Source: Plantibacter sp. PA-3-X8 (GTDB lineage: Bacteria; Actinomycetota; Actinomycetes; Actinomycetales; Microbacteriaceae). From it: a stretch of DNA of 64,000 nucleotides. The position numbers and the translations under genes are program-made. Positions 49,518-64,000 of the stretch are shown one piece after another (the stretch's first letter is position 1; each line of letters opens with the position of its first letter). The stretch covers positions 310,001-374,000 of the forward strand of contig NZ_CP033107.1 of the NCBI RefSeq assembly GCF_003856975.1, in the 5' to 3' direction. The notes under the pieces are model-generated. The model was not told the origin of the DNA. It worked only from the letters and a program-made list of their open reading frames with translations, and did not search any database.

Positions 49518-50228
49518 ATGAAGGTCATCAGCTACAACCTCCGCAAGAACAAGGCCAGCGGCGAGCTCGTCGCACTCACCGAAGAGTTCGGCCCGGACGT
49601 CCTCGCGTTGCAGGAGGCCGACACCCTGCAGCTGCCCGCCGAGCTCGGCGGCCTGCACCTCGCCGACAGCACCCACCGCAACCGGCTCGGCCTCGCGATC
49701 TACTACCGCCGCGACCGGTTCACCGCCGAGTCGACGCAGACGTTCGCGCTGAAGAAGTCGCTGCACGACATGGTGCTCGCGCCGGCGCACGAGCGCCTCA
49801 TCGGCACCCGCCTCACCGACGTCGAGGCCGGGCGCGAACTCATCGTCGCCTCGTTCCACGCGGCCCCGCTCACCGCGCTCAACTCACTGCGTCGGCACCA
49901 GATCAAGGCCGCGCACGAGCAGCTGCACGCGATGGGCGACGTCCCGACGCTCATGGTCGGCGACTACAACTACCCGCTCTTCCAGAAGGGCCTCGGCACC
50001 AAGATGCAGGAGAGCGGCTACGACCTGAGCCTCAGCGATCGCAGCACCTACACCCGCTACAAGATGTTCCGTGGGCACTTCGACTTCGCGACGTCCGTGG
50101 GCCTCAAGATCGACCGGGTGCAGACGCTCCGCCGCGGCATCTCGGACCACCTGCCGATCCTCGTGGACGCGAGCTACGGCTTCGCCGTGCCCGAGGACGA
50201 CGACGCGCCGGAGTCCGCCGCCCGCTGA
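49518..50228 (+). CDS. endonuclease/exonuclease/phosphatase (EEP) family protein
   Basis: 236 residues. The EEP catalytic set is visible: VISYNLRKNK, DVLALQEADT (metal Glu), SFHAAPL, MVGDYNYP and the final SDHLPILVDA. The family covers DNA nucleases such as ExoIII relatives, and phospholipid or nucleotide phosphatases; the lack of a signal peptide favours an intracellular nuclease or phosphatase. Single gene. Confidence 0.88.
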   Translation: MKVISYNLRKNKASGELVALTEEFGPDVLALQEADTLQLPAELGGLHLADSTHRNRLGLAIYYRRDRFTAESTQTFALKKSLHDMVLAPAHERLIGTRLTDVEAGRELIVASFHAAPLTALNSLRRHQIKAAHEQLHAMGDVPTLMVGDYNYPLFQKGLGTKMQESGYDLSLSDRSTYTRYKMFRGHFDFATSVGLKIDRVQTLRRGISDHLPILVDASYGFAVPEDDDAPESAAR

Positions 50229-50261
50229 CCCGGTCGCCTGCCCCTGTGCGCGCCCCGTCCG

Positions 50262-50348
50262 GTTCGCAATTCAGGATGCGCTCGGCGCGGCGCCCTCCTG
50301 CCGCGGCGTGCCACGCGGGAAACGCCGCGCTCGTCCTGAGTTGTGAAC
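50262..50348. terminator. long imperfect palindrome between convergent genes
   Basis: Left arm GTTCGCAATTCAGGATGCGC and the complement at 50323-50348 match over about 26 nt with six mismatches, around a GC-rich 35-nt centre. It lies between the EEP gene and RNase HI and can terminate both. Confidence 0.65.
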
Positions 50349-50360
50349 TCGAAAGCGACG

Positions 50361-51104
50361 TCAGATGAGGCCGCGGAGGAACTCCTGGACGCTCGTGCCG
50401 GCCTCGCGGGCGCGACGGACCAGGCGCTCGTGCTCGTCGGACGTGAGATCGAGGGTGAGCTGGTGCCACGTCGGTTCGACGTCGAGCGAGAACAGCGCGC
50501 CGTCGTCCTCCGCGTCGAACACGGGGGCGGTGCGTTCCTCCTCGACCTCGAGGTCGGCGAACAGCTCCGGCTCGGTCGTCTCGGGAGCGTCTTCAGCCTC
50601 GGCATCAGCCTCGGGGATCGACGGGGTCTCCGCAGCTCCGGCGCCGGTCCAACCGGGTCCCTCCGGCACCGGCGTCTTGCGCTGGAAGGCCTCAGCCGCC
50701 GTGCGGGCGCGGATGTCGGCCGCCTCGTTGAGTCGGTGACCGACGTGACCCTTCACCCACTCGAACCGGTAGCGCCGCCCGGCGATGGCGGCGTCGATCT
50801 CCTGCATGAGCTCGAGGTTCATGACGGGCTTGCCGTCGCCCTTCTTCCAACCCTTCTTCTTCCAGCCCGGCATCCACTTCGTGATCGAGTCGATGACGTA
50901 TTTGCTGTCGCAGAGGATGTGGAGGTCCTCGTCGAGGTGCTCGGTGGCGCGGAACAGTTCGAGGACGGCGCGCAGCTCGCCCATGTTGTTCGTGCCGTGC
51001 GGCCATCCCCCAGCTGCCCAGCAATCGTCGTCGACATACCAGGCCCAGCCGGCGGGTCCGGGGTTGCCGAGGGCGGAGCCGTCTGCGGCAGCGGTGATCG
51101 TCAT
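50361..51104 (-). CDS. rnhA: ribonuclease HI with an extra C-terminal module
   Basis: 247 residues. Type I RNase H catalytic residues: Asp8 in AADGSALGNPGPAGW, Glu43 in NMGELRAV, Asp66 in ILCDSKYVIDS and Asp130 in LNEAADIR; the basic protrusion KWMPGWKKKGWKKGD is present. It removes RNA from RNA-DNA hybrids. A further 100 residues follow: an acidic linker (150-210) and a C-terminal unit, LTLDLTSDEHERLVRRAREA, then GTSVQEFLRGLI, that looks like a ribbon-helix-helix fold. ATG 51104 has AAAGG upstream. Confidence 0.92.
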   Translation of the reverse strand: MTITAAADGSALGNPGPAGWAWYVDDDCWAAGGWPHGTNNMGELRAVLELFRATEHLDEDLHILCDSKYVIDSITKWMPGWKKKGWKKGDGKPVMNLELMQEIDAAIAGRRYRFEWVKGHVGHRLNEAADIRARTAAEAFQRKTPVPEGPGWTGAGAAETPSIPEADAEAEDAPETTEPELFADLEVEEERTAPVFDAEDDGALFSLDVEPTWHQLTLDLTSDEHERLVRRAREAGTSVQEFLRGLI

Positions 51105-51210
51105 GAGCGCCTTTCGATGAGTGCCCTCCATCGTATCGACGCACCACCGACGCCCCGACGCCGGTCCCGCGGTGCCGGTATCGGGCTGGCCCGGCGTCAG
51201 GCGGATGGCG

Positions 51211-52104
51211 TCAGGCGGGCGCGAAGACGCTGAGCGTGACGGCGACCGTGACCGTCGTGTAGCCGGGCAGGTCGGCGATCGCCTGCTCGAAGACGTCGTC
51301 GTCGAGGTGGTGGGCGCTCGGCCCCATGCGGACCTCGTCGCGCACCTCCTCCGGCATGAGTTCGACCGCGTAGTCGAGCGTGTCGCGAGAGCGGAGCGCG
51401 AAGCCGTCGAGCTGCGCGTCGAGGCGGGCGTCCTTGCGCTCGGCGATCCCGATCATGCCGAGACGGTCGCGCAGCTCGGCCAGGTGACCGGGTCGCGGCG
51501 TCACGACGGTGAGCAGGCCGTCCGGGCGGAGCACCCGACGCATCTCGGGACCGTTGCGTGGGCCGAAGATGCTCAACAGGTGGTCGACCGACGCCGCCTG
51601 CAGCGGGAACGGCGCCCAGGCATCAGCGGTCGCCGCTGCAGCCCGGCCGTGTGCGCGCGCGGCGCGACGAGCGGCGAGCGGCGACAGGTCGAACCCGAAC
51701 CCGCGCCAGGCCGGCCGGGCGTCGAGGATCCGGCCCAGGTAGTAGCCGGTCCCGCCGGCGATGTCCACGACGAGCGGGGCGCTGTCGTCGTCGACCGAGC
51801 CGTCCGGGAGGAAGCGCGCGAGCGGCAGGGTCGTGGCGACGTGGTCGGCGATCGGCTCGTAGTGCTCGGCCTCGAGGAACGCTGCGCGGGCCGCTACCAT
51901 CTCCTGCGTGTCGCCGGTCTTCGGCGTCCGACCGCCGACGACGAGCGAGGCGTACCCCTGCCGGGCGATGTCGAAGCTGTGACCGGCGGGGCAGCGGAGC
52001 ACGCGGTCGCCGAGCTCGAGGGTCGCGGTGCAGATCGTGCACGCGAGATCGGGGGCGACGAGGCTCAGCCGATCGTGCTGCGGGACGTCAGCGAGGATCG
52101 GCAT
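51211..52104 (-). CDS. 23S rRNA (guanine-N1) methyltransferase, RlmA/TlrB type
   Basis: 297 residues from ATG 52104. A four-ligand zinc site near the start, Cys22, Cys25, Cys38 and His42 (CTICTATLELGDRVLRCPAG), precedes the SAM fold VVDIAGGTGYYLGRIL, WRGFGFDLSPLAARRAAR and LLSIFGPRNGPEMRRVLRPD. RlmAI methylates G745 and RlmAII/TlrB G748 of 23S rRNA; TlrB gives tylosin resistance in its host. Which guanine is used here cannot be read. A longer open frame to 52179 is possible but less supported. Confidence 0.88.
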   Translation of the reverse strand: MPILADVPQHDRLSLVAPDLACTICTATLELGDRVLRCPAGHSFDIARQGYASLVVGGRTPKTGDTQEMVAARAAFLEAEHYEPIADHVATTLPLARFLPDGSVDDDSAPLVVDIAGGTGYYLGRILDARPAWRGFGFDLSPLAARRAARAHGRAAAATADAWAPFPLQAASVDHLLSIFGPRNGPEMRRVLRPDGLLTVVTPRPGHLAELRDRLGMIGIAERKDARLDAQLDGFALRSRDTLDYAVELMPEEVRDEVRMGPSAHHLDDDVFEQAIADLPGYTTVTVAVTLSVFAPA

Positions 52105-52284
52105 GCCTTCGAAACGCTCCGCTTCCAGCTGCTGTGTCCGTCGCCGCCGCGATGCTTCCGGTTGTCGCACTTCACCCACACGGTGAGTCTAGGCGCGTGC
52201 CGCATGGTGCGTGCGCCGGAACGTTCGAGCAGCGATCCGTCGCGGCGGGCTTCGGCACCGCGGTGACTCGATCGGCTCGGTGAC

Positions 52285-53187
52285 TCAGTCCTCGAGCGCG
52301 CTCCGCAGACGCTCGACCTCCTCGCGTGCTGCGTCGCTGGCACGCTGCGCCCGGTCAGCCTCTCGTCGGCGTCGGACCCACTCGCGATCGGCGTCGGCGA
52401 TGTCCGCGTCGAGCTCCTCGAGGCGCCGTGCGAGGTCCTCGCGGTCACGCTGCAGTCCCGATCGCCGGACCGCCGACTCGTCCAGGAAGGCGGTCGCCTC
52501 CTCACTCGCGCTGGACGCTGCCTCCTCGTCGCGCTCGGCCGCCTCCAGCCGGGCCCGAAGGCGTCGGCGTCGGTCGTCGTCATCGTCGGAATGGTCGCAG
52601 TCTCCGTCGCCCCGCGTCCCGACGGACCCGTCGGCGGTGGAGCGCCTACCGGGGGATCCTGGCCCGCCGACCACACCACCCCACCCCGCTCCGCTCGAGG
52701 TCGGGGCGTCGGTCAGCCGCCCGGACGACACCTGCGCGGCGAGGTCGGCGTCTGCACTCGCCGCTTGCAGACTCTGGCGGACGGTCTCGATCACCGCTCC
52801 GGAGAGGGACGCCCCCTCCGCTGCTGCGGCTTCGACGGTGGCGGTGACGAGCGTCGCGATCAGCGAGCGACGTTCGGTGCCGAGCGTGCGGAGCGCAGTG
52901 GCGTCGCCGGAGCGTTGAGCGTCGCCGAGCGCGGAGCCGAGTTGTTCCAGTTCGCTGAGCAGGTCCGGGCGGTGCGCCGTCAACACGTTGAGCGCCCAGG
53001 CGGCGACCGACGGTTTGCGGAGCGCGAGGATCGCCGTCGCCAGGTCGTCATCCCCGTCGTCGCGCGCTGCGACGGCCAGGCGTTTGCGCTCCGTCACGAA
53101 GCCGCTGAGGGGGACGCGCAGCAACTCGACGGCTGCGGACGCGAGGCCAGTCGGGGCCGGCGTTCCGGTGTCGCGGTCATCGGGCAC
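52285..53187 (-). CDS. coiled-coil protein of unknown function
   Basis: 300 residues from GTG 53187, chosen for GAGGGAG 7 bp upstream. An N-terminal helical domain (VELLRVPLSGFVTERKRLAV with AILALRKPSVAAWALNVLTA) is a pattern often seen in actinobacterial hypothetical proteins. A Gly/Asp linker follows (180-220), then a strongly charged coiled coil (RRRLRARLEAAERDEEAASS to the end). Cytoplasmic; possibly DNA- or membrane-associated. Function unknown. Confidence 0.7.
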   Translation of the reverse strand: MPDDRDTGTPAPTGLASAAVELLRVPLSGFVTERKRLAVAARDDGDDDLATAILALRKPSVAAWALNVLTAHRPDLLSELEQLGSALGDAQRSGDATALRTLGTERRSLIATLVTATVEAAAAEGASLSGAVIETVRQSLQAASADADLAAQVSSGRLTDAPTSSGAGWGGVVGGPGSPGRRSTADGSVGTRGDGDCDHSDDDDDRRRRLRARLEAAERDEEAASSASEEATAFLDESAVRRSGLQRDREDLARRLEELDADIADADREWVRRRREADRAQRASDAAREEVERLRSALED

Positions 53188-53283
53188 GGTGCCGCTCCCT
53201 CGCATCATTTCACGTCAGGCTAGCGCCCTCTTGCGCCAGAACGGAGTCCGACTGTCGCCTTTTCGGGGGTCGATACCGACAAT

Positions 53284-53538
53284 GTGGACATGGATGCCAG
53301 ACCTTACCCCGACACAGCGGAGCCGCCAGAAACAGCGGCCTGCACCGACTTGAAGACCCTCCTCAGGACCGTGGACTTCCCGATCTCACGCCGCGAACTG
53401 CAGTCGATCGCCGTCCGTTCCGGACTCGACCGCGGGACGCTCGCCGCGCTCAACACGCTCACCGAAGAGCACTACGCCGGCTCGTTCGGCATCCTCCGCG
53501 AACTCCGCCACCACGGCGAGCTCCGTCGCTCCGCCTGA
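53284..53538 (+). CDS. DUF2795-domain protein
   Basis: 84 residues. LKTLLRTVDFPISRRELQSI followed by AVRSGLDRGTLAALNTLTEE and a short end is the DUF2795 pattern, a small helical domain found in actinobacterial proteins. GTG 53284 or ATG 53290 could start it; no strong ribosome site. A Cys in ETAACTDL is the only one. Role unknown. Repeat copy A begins 14 bp after the stop. Confidence 0.7.
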   Translation: MDMDARPYPDTAEPPETAACTDLKTLLRTVDFPISRRELQSIAVRSGLDRGTLAALNTLTEEHYAGSFGILRELRHHGELRRSA

Positions 53539-53551
53539 CCGTCTCATCCGA

Positions 53552-53671
53552 CACCTGGTGGATTCCCCAGCGCGGTGCGCTGACGTGAGCGCGGGTCACA
53601 GTCGCGGGCGCGGGTCTCCGGAGGGGCGCGCTCACGCGCGCGGGACGCGGTGACGTCAGCGCACCGCGTGG
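53552..53671. repeat. nested palindrome repeat, copy A
   Basis: 120 bp differing from copy B (54440-54560) by three substitutions and one indel. Outer arms CCAGCGCGGTGCGCTGACGT and ACGTCAGCGCACCGCG are complementary; an inner palindrome (GAGCGCG..CTCCGGAGG..CGCGCTC) lies between. It precedes the lipoprotein gene. Confidence 0.9.
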
Positions 53672-53746
53672 CGGCTCGGCCGGGCAGGCTCTCGGCACGG
53701 TGCGTGACGTCCTTGCTGCTCGCGTTCGGGCTCCTAGACTGGCCCG

Positions 53747-54430
53747 ATGGGGAAACGCACATGGTCTGCAGCTGTCGGAATCGTCATCGCGCTCGGAGTC
53801 GCACTCACCGGCTGCGCGCCGAGTGCACCGGCACCCACCGGCACGCCCGTCGGCTCCCCGACCATGTCGGCCACGCCGGAACCGACTGCCCCTCCTGCGG
53901 AGGACGTCGTCGCCATCGTCGTCGGCCCGTTGGCACTCGAACTCGTCGATACGACCGGGACGCCACTGGAGAGCTTCGCCTACGACGACCCGTCGGAGGA
54001 GGCGCGTGCCAAGCTCACGAACCTGTTCGGAGAGGAACCCGTCGTCGAGGACAACTCGACGGGCAAAGTCCCGAACACCACCTATCAATGGGCGGGTATC
54101 AGCATCTTCGACCGCCAGGGCGACGGCGGCGAGTTCATCCCTGATTGGTCGGTCGCCGTGACGGCGTCGGCCCTCGGCGAGGTCGATTTCCGGTCCATCG
54201 AGGGGACGGTGGTCGGGGCATCGGTCAGTACCGTCCGCGAACGCTATCCGGAGCACCCCGACCAGGTTGATGCGAACGGCGGACGTCACTTCAGCATCTC
54301 GGTGGCGGAGACACCGGTCGGTACCGACGACCAAGGCAACGAGCACACGTACTCCGTCTTCATTTCCGCGCAGGATCCCGACAGCCCCATCGAGAGCATC
54401 GGCGCACCGTACACGAACTTCGGCGACTGA
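53747..54430 (+). CDS. putative lipoprotein of unknown function
   Basis: 227 residues. MGKRTWSAAVGIVIALGVAL then TGC (Cys23) is a lipoprotein signal; a Pro/Thr-rich linker follows (26-50). The mature domain has DVVAIVVGPLALELVDTTGT, TYQWAGISIFDRQGDGGEFI and RERYPEHPDQVDANGGRHFS with no known motif. Its GC content is somewhat lower than its neighbours and it is bracketed by repeat copies A (53552-53671) and B (54440-54560), which suggests acquisition or duplication as a unit. Function unknown. Confidence 0.78.
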   Translation: MGKRTWSAAVGIVIALGVALTGCAPSAPAPTGTPVGSPTMSATPEPTAPPAEDVVAIVVGPLALELVDTTGTPLESFAYDDPSEEARAKLTNLFGEEPVVEDNSTGKVPNTTYQWAGISIFDRQGDGGEFIPDWSVAVTASALGEVDFRSIEGTVVGASVSTVRERYPEHPDQVDANGGRHFSISVAETPVGTDDQGNEHTYSVFISAQDPDSPIESIGAPYTNFGD

Positions 54431-54439
54431 GCTCACCGC

Positions 54440-54560
54440 CACCTGGTGGATTCCCCAGCGCGGTGGGCTGACGTGAGCGCGGGTCACAGTCGCGGGCGCG
54501 GGTCTCCGGAGGGGCGCGCTCACGCGTGCGGGGCGCGGTGACGTCAGCGCACCGCGCTGG
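54440..54560. repeat. nested palindrome repeat, copy B
   Basis: 121 bp, nearly identical to copy A, same orientation, starting 9 bp after the lipoprotein stop. Both start CACCTGGTGGATTCCCCAGC and both contain the inner CTCCGGAGG palindrome; right arm ACGTCAGCGCACCGCGCTGG is exact. Confidence 0.9.
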
Positions 54561-54587
54561 CGATTCCGACAGACATCGTGCAACGCA

Positions 54588-54613
54588 GAAACCCCCGGCG
54601 AACCGAGGGTTTC
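54588..54613 (-). terminator. terminator of tRNA-Ser(GCT)
   Basis: Minus-strand GAAACCCTCGG, loop TTCG, CCGGGGGTTTC (one mismatch), directly after the tRNA. Only a short T-rich end follows. Confidence 0.75.
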
Positions 54614-54629
54614 GAGCTGAGATCCAGTG

Positions 54630-54718
54630 CGGAGACGGCGGGATTTGAACCCGCGGTCCCCTTACGGGGACTCCACCTTAGCAGGGTGGTGCACTAGGCC
54701 GAACTATGCGACGTCTCC
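54630..54718 (-). tRNA. tRNA-Ser (anticodon GCT)
   Basis: 89 nt. Acceptor GGAGACG pairs with CGTCTCC, discriminator G, anticodon loop CTGCTAA with GCT, a long variable arm (GTCCCC...GGGGAC) as in serine tRNAs, and T loop GGTTCAAATCC. CCA not encoded. Confidence 0.95.
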
Positions 54719-54799
54719 ATGTGCGCTCGCAAGCGGACGCACGACGACCAGCATAACCGGTGATGGGCGTGGTGACGAATCCCCGGGTCCGAGACACCC

Positions 54800-54868
54800 T
54801 TCGACACTTCGACAAGCTCAGTGACCGGGACTGTGGTTCCTGAGTCTGTCGGAGGGCAGGGACCGGGG
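54800..54868. repeat. REP-like element R10
   Basis: TTCGACAAGCTCAGTGACC (near 54808) followed by the inverted GGTTCCTGAGTCTGTCGG; part of the gap between tRNA-Ser and the LCP gene. Confidence 0.82.
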
Positions 54869-54920
54869 CGGCCACTTCTGCGCTCGCTGAAAGACCGGCG
54901 TCGGAGACGGACCGGGACGC

Positions 54921-56261
54921 CTACTGGTTGTCGAGGGTACGACCGCGGGAGCAGGTGCGCTGGTCGGCGGTCTGGCCCGTCACGGACGACGGAAGGACCA
55001 CTGCACCACCGGCGGAGGGGTCGGTCGCATCGGCAGGCGGGGCCGTCGCCGCAGGATCGCCACCGGCATCCGCACCCTCGGCGGGCTCGACCGCGGTCGG
55101 GTCGGTCGGGTTCGCCACCGCACCCGCGCCGGTCGCGCCCGAGAGCTGGATGGGCTGGTCGTTGCCGAGCGCCTCGAAGAGCGCGGCCGCCGCATCGTCG
55201 ATCGGCTCGACGCCACCCTCCACGGCGGCGTTCGGATACTGCACGAACGCGATGTTCGCGAGGTCGACCTCACGCAACGTCATGGCGATCGCGATCATCG
55301 TGTCGAGGCTCGTCAGGCTGTCGGACAGCTGCATGTTCTTCGCCGCCGCTTTGGCCAGGGAGTAGAGGATTCCAGGGTTGGTCAGCGTCTCGGCGCTCTT
55401 CACCTGCTGCATCATCGCCGACAGGAACACCTGCTGGTTGCTGATGCGACTGAGGTCGCTGCCGTCGCCGACACCGTGCCTGGTGCGGAGGAACTGCAGT
55501 GCCTCGTACCCCTCGAGCGTGTGCTCGCCCGCCGAGAGGAAGGTGTTCGTGTACTCGTCCTCGATCGGGTCGGCGACACACACCGTCACCCCACCGAGCG
55601 CGGTCGACATGGCCATCACGCCACTGAACTGGACCTCGGCGGCGAACGGGATCTCGAGGCCGGTGAGCTGCGACACCGTCAGCGCCGTGCAGGCGAGTCC
55701 GCCGTAGCTGAGCGAGGTGTTGATCTTCTGCCGGCTCATCGAGTCGAACGAGCCGCCGGACGGGTCGGGGCAGGACGGGATCGGGACGAACATGTCGCGA
55801 GGGAAGCTGACGACCGTCGCGTTGCTGTGGTCTTCGGAGATGTGCACGAGCATCGTGACGTCGTTGAGGTTGCCCGTCTCCTCCTCGGCATCACCGAAGA
55901 CGGGATCCTGACCGGCGCGCGAGTCGCTGCCGACGATCAGGAGGTTGACGCCACCGGGATACGCTCCGATCGCGGGCAGATCGGTGACCGCCTCACCCTG
56001 CGAGTCGACGAGCGCGACGCCGGGTTTCACGGTCGCGGCGACGTCCCAGAGGGCGATGCCGGCGACGATGCCACCGCTGACCAGTGCGACCGCGAGCGTC
56101 GAGGCGACGATCTTCAGGGCGGTCGCGATCGGGTTCGACCGCTTGAGTCGTCCGTGGCGGGCGATGGTCGCGAGCTTCTTCGGGCGGGGCCCACGAGCTG
56201 CCGCTCGGCGTGCCGCGGCGTCGCCGGCGGGCTCGTCGATGTCGGTCGAATGCGGGGGCAT
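54921..56261 (-). CDS. LytR-CpsA-Psr (LCP) family cell-wall ligase, copy 1
   Basis: 446 residues. A basic cytoplasmic start, one TM helix (about 50-70, ATALKIVASTLAVALVSGGI), then the extracellular LCP domain: VGSDSRAGQD, LNDVTMLVHISEDHSNATVV and SFPRDMFVPI, KINTSLSYGG, GGVTVCV and TRHGVGDGSDLSRISNQQVF. LCP enzymes move polymers such as wall teichoic acid or arabinogalactan-like glycans onto peptidoglycan. A Pro/Ala/Asp-rich tail of about 90 residues ends it. The start is uncertain: ATG 56285 is also possible, and neither has a strong ribosome site. Confidence 0.88.
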   Translation of the reverse strand: MPPHSTDIDEPAGDAAARRAAARGPRPKKLATIARHGRLKRSNPIATALKIVASTLAVALVSGGIVAGIALWDVAATVKPGVALVDSQGEAVTDLPAIGAYPGGVNLLIVGSDSRAGQDPVFGDAEEETGNLNDVTMLVHISEDHSNATVVSFPRDMFVPIPSCPDPSGGSFDSMSRQKINTSLSYGGLACTALTVSQLTGLEIPFAAEVQFSGVMAMSTALGGVTVCVADPIEDEYTNTFLSAGEHTLEGYEALQFLRTRHGVGDGSDLSRISNQQVFLSAMMQQVKSAETLTNPGILYSLAKAAAKNMQLSDSLTSLDTMIAIAMTLREVDLANIAFVQYPNAAVEGGVEPIDDAAAALFEALGNDQPIQLSGATGAGAVANPTDPTAVEPAEGADAGGDPAATAPPADATDPSAGGAVVLPSSVTGQTADQRTCSRGRTLDNQ

Positions 56262-56352
56262 TCGTCGATTCAACCACGGGTTCATGTGAAGCGCACAGCC
56301 CGGAGCCGTGGGCTCCGAGGCGCGGGAGTCTCTCGGGGCGGTGAAAGCAGTG

Positions 56353-56437
56353 CGGAGGGCGTGGGATTCGAACCCACGAGACATTTCTGCCCACCAGTTT
56401 TCAAGACTGGCTCCATCGGCCGCTCGGACAGCCCTCC
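56353..56437 (-). tRNA. tRNA-Ser (anticodon TGA)
   Basis: 85 nt. Acceptor GGAGGGC pairs with GCCCTCC, discriminator G, anticodon loop CTTGAAA with TGA, a serine-type variable arm (TGGGCAGAAATGTCTC region) and T loop GGTTCGAATCC. It is about 90 bp upstream of the LCP gene and on the same strand. Confidence 0.95.
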
Positions 56438-56533
56438 TGATGGTCGATCGCCCGCGATGACGCAGCTGACGACCAGGATCGAGTGTATCGGATGGGGCCA
56501 GCGACGAAGCGGCCCCATCCGATCACGCGGTGA

Positions 56534-57781
56534 TTACTGGTCTTCCTCCGGACGACCCGCCGTGCAGGTGTTCTGCGCGGCGTTCTGGCCCGTGATCGTG
56601 TCGGGCAAGGCGACCGGGCCGGCGGCGGACGGGTCCGCGGGCGCTGCCGGGTCCGCCGTGGCAGCGGGATCGGCAGCCGCGTCGGTGGTCGCCGGGTCTG
56701 GCGTGACCGGCGCGTTCGGGTCGGTCACGACGTACTTGCCGGTGGCGGACAGGGCGACGGCCTGGTCGCTCTGCAGCGCCGTCCACAGGACGTCGGCATC
56801 GGACGTCGCCTCGACTCCGCCCTCGACCGTGGCCGTCGGCGTCTGGACGAACGCGACGCGGTCGAGCGGGATGTCCTTGAGCGCTGCGGCGATCGACACC
56901 ATCGTGTCGATGTTGTTCAGGCTGCTCGACAGGGTCACGTTCTTCAGCGCGGCGCGGGCGATCGAGTAGAGCTTGATCGGATCGGAGAGCGTGTCGCTGC
57001 TCTTCAGCGTGCGGACGAGCGAGGAGAGGAAGACCTGCTGGTTCGAGATCCGCGAGAGGTCGCTGCCGTCGCCGACGCCGTGACGTGAGCGGAGGAAGGC
57101 GAGGGCGGACGCGCCCGAGAGGTCGTGGGTGCCGACGTCGAGGTTGATGCCGCTCCAGGCGTCGTTGAGGGGCTCGGTGACACACACCGGCACGCCGCCG
57201 ACCGCGTTCGACATCGAGATGACGCCGTCGAAGCCGATCTGCGCGGCGAACGGGATGGAGAGGCCGGTGATGCCCTCGACCGTGGAGACCGCGCAGGCGA
57301 GCCCGCCGTCGGCCCCGCCGTACATGAGGGCGGTGTTCATCTTGTCGCGACCGTTGCCGCCGTCGGCGCAGTCGCCGATCTGCACGTACATGTCGCGCGG
57401 GAAGCTGACGACCGTGGCGCTCGAGTGGTCTGCCGAGATGTGCATGAGGATCGTGACGTCGTTGAGGTTCTCGTCTCGCTCGCCGTACGCCTGGTTGCCA
57501 TCGCCCGAGTCGCTGCCGACGAGGAGCAGGTTGACGCCGCCCTCGATCGCGCCGATGTTGGGCGGCGGCGCACCCGGCGTCTCGTTGTCGAGGTGGGCGA
57601 CGGGCTTGACGCTGTTGGCGAGGTCGAGCGCGGCCACACCGGCGACCGCGATGCCACTCACGCCGACGACGGCGGCCGTCGCGGCGACGATCTTCGCGAC
57701 GGTGACGAACGGGTTCGACTTGCGGAGTCTGCCGTGACGGACGGCGGCGCGCGGTTTGGACGCGTCGGCGTTGCGGGTCAT
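56534..57781 (-). CDS. LytR-CpsA-Psr (LCP) family cell-wall ligase, copy 2
   Basis: 415 residues, paralogous to the gene at 54921 along its whole length: TM helix (about 30-53, VAKIVAATAAVVGVSGIAVA), VGSDSGDGNQ, LNDVTILMHISADHSSATVV, SFPRDMYVQIGDCADGG, GGVPVCVTEPLND and SRHGVGDGSDLSRISNQQVF. Tail of 70 residues rich in Asp, Pro, Ala and Thr. Same strand, with a tRNA-Ser gene between the copies. ATG 57781 has GAGAGCGAG upstream. Confidence 0.9.
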   Translation of the reverse strand: MTRNADASKPRAAVRHGRLRKSNPFVTVAKIVAATAAVVGVSGIAVAGVAALDLANSVKPVAHLDNETPGAPPPNIGAIEGGVNLLLVGSDSGDGNQAYGERDENLNDVTILMHISADHSSATVVSFPRDMYVQIGDCADGGNGRDKMNTALMYGGADGGLACAVSTVEGITGLSIPFAAQIGFDGVISMSNAVGGVPVCVTEPLNDAWSGINLDVGTHDLSGASALAFLRSRHGVGDGSDLSRISNQQVFLSSLVRTLKSSDTLSDPIKLYSIARAALKNVTLSSSLNNIDTMVSIAAALKDIPLDRVAFVQTPTATVEGGVEATSDADVLWTALQSDQAVALSATGKYVVTDPNAPVTPDPATTDAAADPAATADPAAPADPSAAGPVALPDTITGQNAAQNTCTAGRPEEDQ

Positions 57782-57927
57782 GGATCTCGCTCTCGTCTCA
57801 GGAACAGGGGTGGCCGGAACCCAGGAGACCGGGCTGCGGCGAGTCGTCCGGCGACACCTGGAGCAGGCGCGCACCGACGCCCCGTGCCCACCGGAAACGG
57901 CGTATCGGCACGGAGCTTTGGACGATG

Positions 57928-58752
57928 CTAACCCGAAATGCTCCTCAGGAGCTGAGAGAGACCGTCGTCGGTGACCGTGCCGGTGACCTCCGACGCGACC
58001 GCGAGGACCTCCTCGGGCGCCTGGCCCATGGCGACACCGCGCCCTCCGGCTGCGGCCCAGCCGAGCATGTCGACGTCGTTGCGGCCGTCGCCGACGGCGA
58101 CCATCTGCGAGCGCTCGAGCCCCAGCCACTCCCGGACACGCTCCAGCGCGGTCGCCTTGTTGACGCCCTTCGGCGCGATGTCGAGCCATGCCGTCCAGCC
58201 GATCGCGTAGCTCACCTGGCTGAGCCCGATCTTGTCGACGATGCGGAGGAACTCCTCCTCGTCGTGGCTCGGGGATACGACGACGACGCGTGTCACGGGG
58301 CTCGTGACGAGCTCCTCGAACGGCACCTCGATCGCGTTCTCGAGGTTCCAGTCCTCCATGCCGACCGTGTACTTGCGGAAGCCGTCGGGGTATTCGACCA
58401 TGTAGCTGCCCTCGGAGAGGTGCGGCTGGATGAGCCCGAGGACCTCGGTCGGGTCGAAGGTCTCCATGAAGAAGCGCTCATAGGAGTCGGGCTTCGACTC
58501 ATCGCGCTTCATGATGAGCGCACCGTTCGCGCAGACGACGTACTGCGGCGTCAGCTCGAGCTCCTCGAGCACCGGGCGCGTGCTCTCCCAGCTGCGACCG
58601 GTGGCCAAGGTGACGATGTGGCCGAGCGAGACCACGCGGCGCACCTCGTCGGCGACCGACAGGCTGAGCGAACCGTCCTCGTGCAGCACGGTGCCGTCGA
58701 TGTCGAGGGCGACGAGCAGCGGGTTCGCGGTGGTGGTCGTCTCGTCCGTCAT
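57928..58752 (-). CDS. HAD-superfamily hydrolase, Cof type
   Basis: 274 residues. HAD motifs I ([16 protein letters not shown]), II ([16 protein letters not shown]), and IV ([16 protein letters not shown]) with the Cof cap ([20 protein letters not shown]) mark a Cof-type phosphatase acting on sugar phosphates or cofactors such as FMN. Its ATG overlaps the serS stop (ATGA), so it is in an operon with seryl-tRNA synthetase. Confidence 0.92.
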
Positions 58753-60014
58753 CGGATCGGCCTCGCGACCTCGATGCCGCCCAGGTACGGACGCAGCACC
58801 TCGGGGATGACGACGCTGCCGTCCTCCTGCTGGTGCGTCTCGAGGATCGCGACGATCCAGCGGGTGGTCGCGAGCGTTCCGTTGAGCGTCGCGACCGGCG
58901 TGGTCTTGCCCGACTCCCCGCGGTACCGGGTGTCGAGGCGACGCGCCTGGTAGGTGGTGCAGTTCGAGGTGCTGGTGAGCTCGCGGTACGCGTCCTGCGT
59001 CGGCACCCAGGCCTCGACGTCGAACTTGCGTGCCGCGCTCGACCCGAGGTCGCCGGCGGCCGTGTCGATGACCCGGTAGCTGAGGCCGAGCGACTGCAGC
59101 ATCGCCTCCTGGTACGACAGCAGGCGCTCGTGCTCGGCGGCGGCGTCCTCCGGCTTGGTGTAGACGAACATCTCGAGCTTGTTGAACTGGTGCACCCGGA
59201 TGATGCCGCGGGTGTCGCGCCCGTAGGACCCGGCCTCCTTGCGGTAGCAGGTCGACCAGCCGGCGTAGCGGAGCGCGCCCTCCTCGAGGTCGAGGATCTC
59301 GTCGGAGTGGTACCCGGCGAGCGCCACCTCGCTCGTGCCGGTGAGGAAGAGGTCTTCACCGGCGATCTGGTAGACCTCGTCGGCGTGCTCGCCGAGGAAG
59401 CCGGTGCCCTTCATGATCTCGGGGCGCACGAGCGTCGGCGTGATGAGCGGGACGAAGCCGGCCTCGATCGCGCGGTCGAGCGCGAGGTTCATGAGGGCGA
59501 TCTCGAGGCGGGCGCCGATGCCGCGGAGGAAGTAGAAGCGCGAGCCGCTGACCTTGGTGCCGCGCTGCATGTCGATGGCGCCGAGGAGCTCCCCGAGCTC
59601 GAGGTGGTCGCGCGGGGCGAAGTCGAAGGAGGGGCGTTCGCCGACCTCGCGGAGCGTGATGAAGTCGGCCTCGCCGCCGGCGGGCACGCCGTCGAGCACC
59701 GGGTTCTGGATGCGACCGGCGACGTCGGCGAAGTAGGCCTCGGCCTCGGTCGCGACCTGCTGGGCCTCCTTGACGCGGGCGGCGAGCTGCTGCGCTTGGG
59801 CGACGAGGGCGGCCTTCTCCTCCTTGGGGGCCTTGGCGACCTGCTTGCCGAACGCGTTCTGCTCGGCACGGAGTTCCTCGAACCCGGTGATCGCAGCGCG
59901 GCGTGCGGTGTCGGCGTCGATCGCCTGGTCGACGAGGTCGACGGAGGACCCTCGCTTCTGCTGCGACGCTCGGAGGACTTCTGGCTGTTCGCGGAGGAGT
60001 ACGGGATCGATCAC
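58749..60014 (-). CDS. serS: seryl-tRNA synthetase
   Basis: 421 residues, the usual SerRS size. The N-terminal coiled coil (27-100, [20 protein letters not shown]) binds the long variable arm of tRNA-Ser. Class II motifs: motif 2 [20 protein letters not shown] and [10 protein letters not shown], motif 3 in [20 protein letters not shown] with [15 protein letters not shown], and the serine site [13 protein letters not shown]. It charges the two tRNA-Ser genes a few kilobases away, among others. First gene of the operon with the Cof hydrolase. Confidence 0.97.
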
Positions 60015-60071
60015 CCGGCAAGTCTAGCGATCGAGGTCGGTGACGAGGCCCCGGGACAGTACCGTTGGGCC

Positions 60072-61040
60072 ATGCCGACTCCCCCGCACGCCGCGCTCGT
60101 GTACAACCCGGTGAAGGTCGACGCCACCCGGCTGCGGAGCGCGTTGGAGGCGCGGTCACAGGAGGCGGGATGGGCGGCTCCGCACCTGTACGAGACGAGC
60201 GTCGACGACCCCGGTGTCGGTCAGGCGCGGCGCGCGGTCCTCGACGGTGCTCAGGTGGTGCTCGTGGCCGGCGGCGACGGGACCGTGCGGGCCGTCGCCG
60301 AAGGCCTTCGCGGGAGCGGTGTGCCGCTGACCCTCATCCCCTCGGGGACCGGCAACCTGCTCGCGAGGAACCTGAAGGTGCCGCTCGGCGACCAGCTGGC
60401 CGCGATCGGGACGGCGTTCACGGGCGACACGCGCGCGATCGACATCGGCGTCGCCATGATCACCCGTGCCGACGGGTCGGAGGAGGAGCACGCGTTCGTC
60501 GTGATGGCCGGCATGGGCATCGACGCGATGATGATCGCCACCGCGAACCCCGACCTCAAGAAGTCGCTCGGCTGGCTCGCCTATGTCGAGTCCGGTCTCC
60601 GCTCGATCGCCACGGCCGCGCCGTTCCGCATCCACTACCAGTTGCGCGGGCACCGTCAGCATGCGGCGACCGTGAGCTCGGTGCTCGTCGGGAACTGCGG
60701 CACGCTGCAGGGCGGGGTGCAGCTCATGCCGGACGCCGAACTCGACGACGGGTTCCTCGACGTCGCGGTGCTGCAGCCGAAGGGTGCCTTCGGCTGGCTG
60801 CTCGTGTGGCGGAAGGTGACGTGGGAGAACCGGGTCCTGCGGCGGACTGCCGTGGGGCGACGGATGATCCGCTTCACCGAGGGCCGGGGCGGGAACACCG
60901 TGACGAACCTGCGTGCTGAGGCGCTGACCGTGCGGGTCGACGAGGCGCAGGACCTGGAGCTCGACGGCGACGCGTTCGGCATGGCGACCATGGTCGCGTT
61001 CGACGCGCACCGCGGCGGGTTGCTCGTCAAGCTCCCGTAG
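60072..61040 (+). CDS. diacylglycerol kinase-family lipid kinase
   Basis: 322 residues. The DAGK catalytic pattern: ALVYNPVKVDATRLRSAL at the start, VLVAGGDGTVRAVAEGLRGS (GGDGT nucleotide loop), PLTLIPSGTGNLLARNLKVP and the C-terminal beta domain with VLVGNCGTLQGGVQLMPDAE and DDGFLDVAVLQPKG. It should phosphorylate diacylglycerol or a related lipid or sphingoid. Divergent from serS, 57 bp apart; weak ribosome site, so possibly leaderless. Confidence 0.9.
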   Translation: MPTPPHAALVYNPVKVDATRLRSALEARSQEAGWAAPHLYETSVDDPGVGQARRAVLDGAQVVLVAGGDGTVRAVAEGLRGSGVPLTLIPSGTGNLLARNLKVPLGDQLAAIGTAFTGDTRAIDIGVAMITRADGSEEEHAFVVMAGMGIDAMMIATANPDLKKSLGWLAYVESGLRSIATAAPFRIHYQLRGHRQHAATVSSVLVGNCGTLQGGVQLMPDAELDDGFLDVAVLQPKGAFGWLLVWRKVTWENRVLRRTAVGRRMIRFTEGRGGNTVTNLRAEALTVRVDEAQDLELDGDAFGMATMVAFDAHRGGLLVKLP

Positions 61041-61076
61041 CCACCACCCGTCCCCCATCCTGGCTCGGTGGGGTGC

Positions 61077-61200
61077 CAGCGCGGTGCGCTGGCGTGAGCG
61101 CGGGTCATCGACGTGAGCGCGGGTCTCCGGAGGGGCGCGCTCACGTCGATGACCCGCAGTGACGCCGATGCGTGCATGGTGACGTCAGCGCACCGCGCTG
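61077..61200. repeat. nested palindrome repeat, copy C
   Basis: Same outer arms as copies A and B (CCAGCGCGGTGCGCTGGCGT, ACGTCAGCGCACCGCGCTG), but the inner arms differ: TCATCGACGTGAGCGCG pairs with its perfect complement around the CTCCGGAGG region. It lies in the gap before hutU. Confidence 0.85.
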
Positions 61201-61302
61201 ACGGACGAACAGCGACCCGAAACACCCGGATGTCTGGCGGACCAGACAGCCACAGCCCGGTCGCTCTCGCCGTGCGGGCCCCGGGAGGAGTGGACTGATC
61301 AC

Positions 61303-62969
<1,667 letters not shown>

Positions 62970-62973
<4 letters not shown>

Positions 62974-64000
62974 CCGACGGCCTGATCGCCCACGGTCGGC
63001 TCGCCGGGCTCGACGAGATCGCCGGCGTCGGCGTCGATCCGGCACGCGGCGGGTACTCCCGGCACGTCTGGACGCCGGCCGAGTCGGAGCTGCGCGAGTG
63101 GTTCACGGCTCGCGCCGCCCGACTCGGGCTCGACGTCGAGACGGACCGGAACGGCAACCTGTGGGCGTGGTGGGGCGCGCGTGGGCCCGACGCGGTCGTC
63201 ACCGGCAGCCACCTCGACTCCGTCCCGGGCGGCGGCGCCTTCGACGGGCCGCTCGGCGTCGTCTCAGCGCTGGACGCCGTCGCGCGTCTGCAGGCCACCG
63301 GGTTCCAACCGTCGCGTCCCGTCGCCGTCGTGGTGTTCGCCGAGGAGGAGGGGTCCCGGTTCGGGGTCGCCTGCCTCGGATCCCGGCTCCTGTCCGGTGC
63401 GATCACCGCGGACGCCGCCCGAGCGCTGACGGACGCCGACGGGGTCACCGTGGCGGAGGCCGCAGCGGCCGCCGGGCTCGCTCCCGAGCACCTCGGCCGC
63501 GACGACGAGGCGCTCGGCCGCATCGGACTCTTCATCGAGTTGCACGTGGAACAGGGTCGCGGCCTCATCGACCTCGGCTCGCCCACCGCCGTCGCCTCGT
63601 CGATCCTCGCCCACGGCCGCTGGCGACTCCGCGTGAGCGGTCAGGGGAACCACGCCGGCGCGACCGGCATGCGCGAGCGTCGTGATCCCGTGGTCGCCGC
63701 GGCACGGGCCGTCATCGCGGTCGAGCAGGCCGCCCTCGCGACGGACGACGCCCGCGCCACCGTCGGCCGCATGCGCATCGTGCCGGGCGGCACCAACGTC
63801 ATCGCCTCCGAGGTCGACGCCTGGGTGGACGCGCGCGCGGCCACCGATGCCGGCACGCGCGCCCTCGTCGCGGACATCGAGAGCCGGGTGCAAGAGGCCG
63901 TCGCCGGTTCCGGCTGTACAGCGGAGCTGGTCGAGGAGTCGTGGTCGGGCGTCGTCGAGTTCGACCCAGAGCTCGCCGCGCGGCTGGCGGGCACGCTCGG
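62970..64000 (+). CDS. M20-family amidohydrolase (allantoate/N-carbamoyl-amino-acid type), truncated by the window
   Basis: At least 343 residues, still open at the right edge. The dizinc motifs are [37 protein letters not shown] and [11 protein letters not shown], followed by the lid region [20 protein letters not shown] and [18 protein letters not shown]. This is the HyuC/AllC (allantoate amidohydrolase, N-carbamoyl-L-amino acid hydrolase) group. Coupled to hutU, it likely acts on a histidine-pathway intermediate such as formiminoglutamate or N-carbamoylglutamate rather than allantoate. Confidence 0.92.

Follow-up and report, generated by a model that had tools for sequence, protein, structure and literature searches.

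An intergenic palindromic repeat family of Plantibacter conserves evenly spaced short sites rather than base pairing

The 64,000-nucleotide stretch of the Plantibacter sp. PA-3-X8 chromosome analyzed here (contig NZ_CP033107.1, positions 310001 to 374000; hereafter the window) carries three copies of a nested palindrome, which we designate A, B, and C. Such dispersed palindromic repeats are usually taken for hairpins or transposon debris, and a sequence-only reading of the window had argued that compensatory change between the arms implies selection on structure. What does selection on this element preserve? Comparison of the copies across the genus leads us to lean toward a different answer, namely, that the palindromes are a genus-specific composite intergenic repeat, similar to repetitive extragenic palindromic (REP) sequences and bacterial interspersed mosaic elements (BIMEs), which probably functions in double-stranded DNA as a set of putative protein sites.

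The sequence-only reading had looked to further copies in the genome and in other Microbacteriaceae. With copy A as the query, 40 of 96 candidate places in the genome (4,082,089 bp in one contig) were scored; they yielded 138 aligned pieces, which resolved into 39 dyads of the palindrome family. A dyad pattern with up to two mismatches found 37 places genome-wide, all within these 39, and the 20-nucleotide arm pattern with up to three mismatches found 85 sites, versus 3 for the reversed control. Members occur in all seven Plantibacter genomes: the exact arm pair at the correct spacing was present at 5 to 16 places in each (control matches, 0), the inner dyad was found at 37, 42, and 19 places in three of them, and the stretches examined in the seven genomes hold at least 141 dyads. 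The relatives' counts are lower bounds, since only chosen stretches, picked largely by exact arms, were examined in them; for one relative (G003), 40 of 63 candidate places were scored and the census is possibly incomplete. Three of the 141 dyads lay too close to a locus end and were dropped, leaving 138 elements and 276 halves.

Beyond the genus, the arm-pair pattern led to no recognizable family member in 391 other Microbacteriaceae genomes. When the loop bases were left free, 8 of these 391 genomes matched once each; by eye, seven of the matches are a different element and one is a probable chance match in coding sequence. Of 147 genomes from other genera, 3 had one match each to the inner dyad with up to two mismatches, no more than the 5 matched by its reversed control. 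In a collection of 84,980 species genomes, from which records very close to the window were possibly left out, the exact arm pair marked 46 stretches, all from Plantibacter and representing four species. On the genome sequences searched, the family is restricted to the genus Plantibacter. No title or abstract opening found in the literature describes it. The different element is about 100 bp long and carries several palindromes, with CAGCGC-N3-GCGCTG ends around GGATGCGC...GCGCATCC and similar sequences; its seven single matches fall in genomes of five other Microbacteriaceae genera (L071, L072, L073, L075, L076, L077, and G277:C15:8900-9000), and it could be a conserved RNA or a protein site.

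Alignment of the 276 halves on the dyad revealed a modular anatomy. A unit core, (S)AGCGCGG, recurs every 19 to 20 bp, facing inward from both sides of a CTCCGGAG dyad, and the array is closed by 15-bp arms with the consensus CAGCGCGGTGCGCTG (211 of 262 arms are exact), each of which is itself a small inverted repeat, CAGCGC-GGT-GCGCTG. In 262 of the 276 halves, the arm begins at one of two distances from the dyad: 52 or 53 bp in short halves, and 72 or 73 bp in long halves, which carry an additional unit with a GAATCGG-like core. Among the 138 elements, 96 combine a long with a short half, 28 consist of two short halves (short-short), and none consists of two long ones; in the other 14, one half is unclassified. 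Of 262 halves, 177 carry a tag-like CGTC adjoining the arm, a second arm lies 39 bp further out in 48 halves, and within the PA-3-X8 genome the central triplet tends to be GGT on one side and CCC on the other. Between species, the intervals fall into length groups of about 160, 201, and 240 bp, or two dyads replace one; these steps of about 39 bp read as gain and loss of modules.

The conserved parts of the element are the cores and arms. In 94 orthologous half-pairs (those with more than 22 differences were excluded), substitutions numbered 12/470 in the first core, 9/470 in the second, and 39/1410 in the arms, compared with 93/376 in the spacers and 224/940 in the ten bases outside the arm. 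Cores and arms thus diverge by 2 to 3%, spacers by 25%, and the sequence just outside the arm by 24%. The difference between the first core and the spacers (p = 1e-23) persists (p = 2e-5) in the 22 half-pairs that had not been selected by their arms, a set whose divergence is raised by some pairings of neighboring copies: here, the counts are 4/110 and 1/110 for the two cores, 22/330 for arms, 21/88 for spacers, 18/66 for the triplet at positions -5 to -7, and 69/220 outside. In 59 comparisons, divergence of the whole element was below that of the remaining intergenic DNA 52 times and below that of four-fold sites 55 times. Gaps make up 0 to 1.5% of elements versus 1.5 to 21% of intergenic DNA; comparisons in which gaps took up at least 30% of the element, or whose span was unsuitable, had been dropped beforehand. 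Because the cores are evenly spaced and kept while the spacers drift, we read the element as a probable protein-binding array rather than a folded RNA.

The proposal that the palindrome is a transcribed hairpin, a bidirectional terminator or a stabilizer of 3' untranslated regions whose functional part is the nested palindrome itself, accords with the position of the elements behind genes and between convergent genes. It also accords with their predicted folds. All 31 elements tested fold better than their shuffles (z = -3.9 to -10.3; these are the elements with both standard arms among the 39, the other 8 having been dropped), and, folded as DNA, copies A, B, and C beat dinucleotide shuffles by 5.1, 5.1, and 11.6 standard deviations (SD), a range of z from about -5 to -11.6. 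Strong folds are expected in any case, because a dyad of like sites must fold.

Variation among the copies gives no sign that pairing is maintained. In the 39 elements of the PA-3-X8 genome, the halves agree at variable positions -17 to -21 in 83 left-right matches, versus 84.4 expected from re-dealt right halves, and at the triplet -5 to -7 in 34 matches versus 54.6 expected (SD, 7.8; 0.5% of 2,000 permutations were as low). The mean fold energy of the 31 real elements is -85.8 kcal/mol, while re-paired halves reach -89.6 kcal/mol (SD, 1.1) and fold better in 40 of 40 re-pairings. Across 81 comparisons between orthologues with at most 30 differences, single changes break a pair 176 times, make one 158 times, and keep one through a one-sided change 126 times; 13 of 50 double changes retain pairing. 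Pairing is not kept by compensatory change. A structured RNA supported by covariation is therefore rejected, as the halves are independent, the triplet is anti-correlated, re-paired halves fold better, and pairs are made about as often as broken. The compensatory change on which the sequence-only reading had based selection for structure is not supported by paralogues or orthologues. As for the unlike triplets, the elements may be avoiding long perfect palindromes, or the array may have a polarity.

Copy C had been the example of such change, its inner arms (GGGTCATCGACGTGAGCGCG) described as replaced yet still perfectly paired. The pairing is indeed perfect; it is, however, the sole perfect match over the 20 inner positions (-8 to -27) among the 39 elements, and in the single orthologue available 16 of these 20 positions are paired (half-pairs with more than 14 differences were excluded). 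The perfect inner pairing is thus a private state of copy C. Further points stand against a hairpin: Rfam gave no match above the gathering score in window positions 50000 to 64000 except tRNA-Ser, no T-run was noticed at the element ends (by eye and uncounted, in the printed sequences), and a different hairpin-like sequence, again seen by eye, lies at about 54590 to 54612 between copy B and a tRNA-Ser gene. On this evidence, we consider a transcribed hairpin unlikely.

Where the elements lie is informative: placed behind genes, they may serve as two-way road-blocks or as anchors for supercoils or the chromosome. None of the 39 lies inside a gene as called by a simple, purpose-made codon-usage caller. 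The 36 gaps that hold an element comprise 16 convergent, 16 co-directional, and 4 divergent gaps, whereas the 57 other gaps of at least 130 bp in the same stretches comprise 5, 30, and 22, respectively; the preference for convergent gaps (16/36 versus 5/57) is significant (p = 1e-4). The gene to the left of copy C was miscalled, as the plus-strand open reading frame (ORF) at 58833 to 61040 has a Pfam domain and the called minus-strand ORF has none, so divergent gaps number at most 3 of 36. Both flanks of 26 of the 39 elements could be matched to relatives' loci, and the element was present in 88 of 91 comparisons, a fraction biased toward presence because the loci were mostly picked for holding elements and because A and B were matched to one and the same element. 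Element pairs 0.4 to 3.5 kb apart number 9, versus 1.1 expected and a maximum of 6 in 5,000 random placements, and most of them bracket one or two called genes (e.g., 96330/98346, 1497530/1499682, and 4005061/4007480). The largest element-free stretch spans 1.32 Mb (2005987 to 3330913) and includes the point opposite dnaA (772 kb); the relative G003 has an element-free gap of about 1.36 Mb in its 40 scored places. None of 20,000 random placements of all 39 elements equaled the 1.32-Mb gap, while with the 15 clusters counted once its p value is 0.06. Depletion around the terminus is therefore not significant with clusters counted once and is treated here as a lead only.

Could the elements instead be selfish DNA? 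They might be non-autonomous elements, similar to REPINs (REP doublets) or miniature inverted-repeat transposable elements (MITEs), that have since lost their transposase, with arms that are the old recognition ends and an interior that hitch-hikes. The copies are dispersed and genus restricted, and they have the terminal inverted repeats of a MITE in their inverted 15-bp arms. The CGTC beside the arm also recalls the CGTC class of REPs, which likewise lacks a dedicated transposase (PMC3733652). In addition, copy C is absent from relative G005, where its place is empty, and in relative G001 the 6-kb interval matched by its flanks contains no dyad. The interior cores, however, are as conserved as the arms, and the places occupied are mostly common to the species compared. 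Neither of the two unoccupied sites that were aligned showed a target-site duplication; one of them (371115 in G005) has diverged flanks, while the other (1560138 in G003) is a deletion of the copy between short GCTGAC repeats. The sequence-only reading had named a REP-associated transposase as a possible recognizing enzyme; no Y1_Tnp domain (PF01797) was found in the PA-3-X8 genome at E <= 1 or in any of the seven Plantibacter genomes at E <= 0.01, and mobilization by a REP-associated tyrosine transposase (RAYT) is rejected. We regard the selfish-element account as doubtful.

Copies A and B occupy a locus that differs between species. Four relatives have a single element here, with the upstream gene and downstream flank that are also found in PA-3-X8, whereas in PA-3-X8 an 888-bp direct step (53548 to 54556), flanked by a 121-bp direct repeat, adds a second element copy and a 227-amino-acid ORF (53747 to 54430, plus strand). 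The ORF has no Pfam match, is presumably lipoprotein-like at its N terminus, and is absent from this place in the four relatives; no close homologue was found in six relatives (33% identity in G001, 53% over 41 residues in G002, and no match in the other four). A and B, which are 97% identical over 121 nucleotides, therefore represent one duplication rather than independent samples, and the three copies in the window represent two lineages, with C separate. That the elements serve as recombination substrates, promoting gene gain by homologous or site-specific exchange as in this A-gene-B arrangement, is very improbable: the gene gained here, the excess of close pairs, and the interval lengths that differ by about 39 bp between species would fit, but the bracketed genes, as called, look ordinary, many bracket pairs are common to relatives, the three integrase-domain proteins of the genome show no link to the elements, and repeats recombine without needing a dedicated role.

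Several known systems resemble the element in part. The nucleoid-occlusion sites of Noc and SlmA are also dispersed palindromic protein sites, single and short, and the Plantibacter elements share with them dispersion and, with the statistical weight given above, a gap opposite dnaA. A Noc-like ParB paralogue was rejected as a candidate, as the single ParB_N protein in the genome adjoins dnaA. The enterobacterial repetitive intergenic consensus (ERIC), or intergenic repeat unit (IRU), is an imperfect palindrome, like the Plantibacter element; to our knowledge, it has no modular unit array, is unrelated in sequence, and belongs to another phylum. The BOX elements of Streptococcus pneumoniae are likewise unrelated in sequence, and we know of no phased half-sites around a dyad among their modules. 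Published descriptions supply the likenesses: ERIC/IRU is an intergenic repeat of similar length (about 127 bp, in Enterobacteriaceae; PMC2759123), and BOX elements are modular, having end modules plus inner modules whose number differs among strains (PMC3049150).

The closest likeness is to REPs and BIMEs, which share with the Plantibacter element inverted palindromic units in composite intergenic arrays, located behind genes and between convergent genes (PMC3733652, PMC2817692). The element conforms to the general description of REPs as short intergenic palindromes in many copies, often in inverted pairs, although its roughly 40 copies fall below the usual number of more than 100 (PMC2817692), and its interior of 19- to 20-bp units with conserved cores and drifting spacers is different. 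In the parts of PMC3733652 that define it, a CGTC-tagged REP has CGTC (or TGTC/CCTC) at one end, an 8- to 9-bp stem with A/T in the first two pairs, a 4- to 5-nucleotide loop, and a CCA-like tail; most families of this class, which lacks a dedicated transposase, prefer unlike units within a pair. The Plantibacter element shares the lack of a transposase, the location behind genes, and unlike halves, but despite its CGTC, the arm it shows most often (211 of 262) pairs over 6 bp around a 3-nucleotide loop, outside that definition. The word Actinobacteria is absent from the main text of PMC3733652. As the sequence-only reading had noted, the element has no catalogued counterpart that we could find, in Rfam or elsewhere. 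Its placing of the copies among dispersed REP- or MITE-like elements or DNA sites was the right neighborhood, and they are under selection; structure as the target was not borne out.

For the protein-array reading, BIMEs offer a precedent, as they bind integration host factor and gyrase, and REPs bind DNA polymerase I and assist Rho-dependent termination (PMC2817692). The phased sites would be occupied by a putative oligomeric DNA-binding protein or, as at BIME-2, by DNA gyrase, and a compact protein complex would form behind genes, where it could obstruct read-through from both directions or anchor supercoils or the chromosome. Copies would change by whole modules of about 39 bp gained or lost, and the array would not be mobilized by a RAYT today.

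Several observations weigh against this reading. Searches of the PA-3-X8 proteins for Y1_Tnp, ParB_N, and integrase domains gave no binding-protein candidate tied to the elements, and units 19 to 20 bp apart do not fall at integral multiples of the helical turn. Conservation does not extend to the triplet at -5 to -7 (38/282, in addition to 18/66 in the unbiased set), and arm conservation is overstated because the relatives' loci were mostly picked by exact arms. The shared cores could also be kept alike in part by gene conversion between copies. Finally, every element tested folds better than its shuffles, and most possible hairpin pairs join conserved cores, so a loose structural requirement may exist. 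A more specific version, in which the elements are docking arrays for a putative genus-specific oligomeric DNA-binding protein that organizes the chromosome, strikes us as distinctly speculative and improbable; it would unite the dyad-centered, 19- to 20-bp-phased sites, the limit of one long half, the location at the borders of transcription units, with single units often bracketed, and the absence from about one-third of the chromosome around the presumed terminus.

In the window, A, B, and C are composite palindromes of one family, and the description of them as nested palindromes with CTCCGGAG at the center holds for all three. Copy A (53568 to 53671) is 104 bp long and of the short-short form, with its dyad between 53619 and 53620. 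On the plus strand lie its left arm, CAGCGCGGTGCGCTG (53568 to 53582), and its left outer unit core, GAGCGCGGGTC (53587 to 53597, read from the sequence); the central dyad, GGGCGCGGGTCTCC/GGAGGGGCGCGCTC (53606 to 53633), has unlike triplets (GGT left and CCC right), and the outer end of the right arm (53657 to 53671, minus strand) has decayed. Copy B (54456 to 54559), also 104 bp, has its dyad between 54507 and 54508. Copy C (61077 to 61200) is 124 bp long and of the short-long form, with its dyad between 61128 and 61129; it comprises a left arm (61077 to 61091) and left outer unit core (61096 to 61106) on the plus strand, a central dyad, GAGCGCGGGTCTCC/GGAGGGGCGCGCTC (61115 to 61142), and, on the minus strand, a right outer unit core, GACCCGCAGTG (61151 to 61161), an extension-unit stretch (GCCGAT...; 61162 to 61185) that lengthens the right half from 52 to 72 bp, and a right arm (61186 to 61200). 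The limits previously given for C stand, while the starts given for A (53552) and B (54440) include 16 bases of locus flank, which the two copies share because they are duplicates. Likewise, the shared outer arms are correct at 15 bp but not at the 20 nucleotides claimed, over which the copies differ: the left arm of B reads GGGCTG instead of GCGCTG, the right arm of A ends in CGCGTGG, and C has GGCGT for GACGT.

Copy B is approached by a convergent tRNA-Ser(GCT) gene (54629 to 54718, minus strand), with the hairpin-like sequence mentioned above between them. The ORF that ends 37 bp ahead of copy C (58833 to 61040, plus strand) encodes a diacylglycerol-kinase catalytic domain, and a urocanate hydratase (urocanase) gene lies downstream of C (61303 to 62973, plus strand). 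Between B and C, positions 54921 to 57563 hold two adjacent paralogous genes about 1.6 kb apart, with blocks 71 to 82% identical, the first of which encodes a LytR_cpsA_psr protein. A second tRNA-Ser (TGA; 56352 to 56437, minus strand) overlaps the start of the listed ORF at 54921 to 56384, so this ORF start is probably placed too far upstream.

One well-paired copy is poor ground for inferring selection on structure. With about 140 copies in seven species, the hairpin reading of a dispersed palindrome can be tested from sequence alone, and here the constraint falls on spaced short sites, not on pairing. If a protein does hold these arrays, a plant-associated actinobacterial genus would possess a boundary or chromosome-anchoring system of its own, and the protein could be sought directly with the array as bait.

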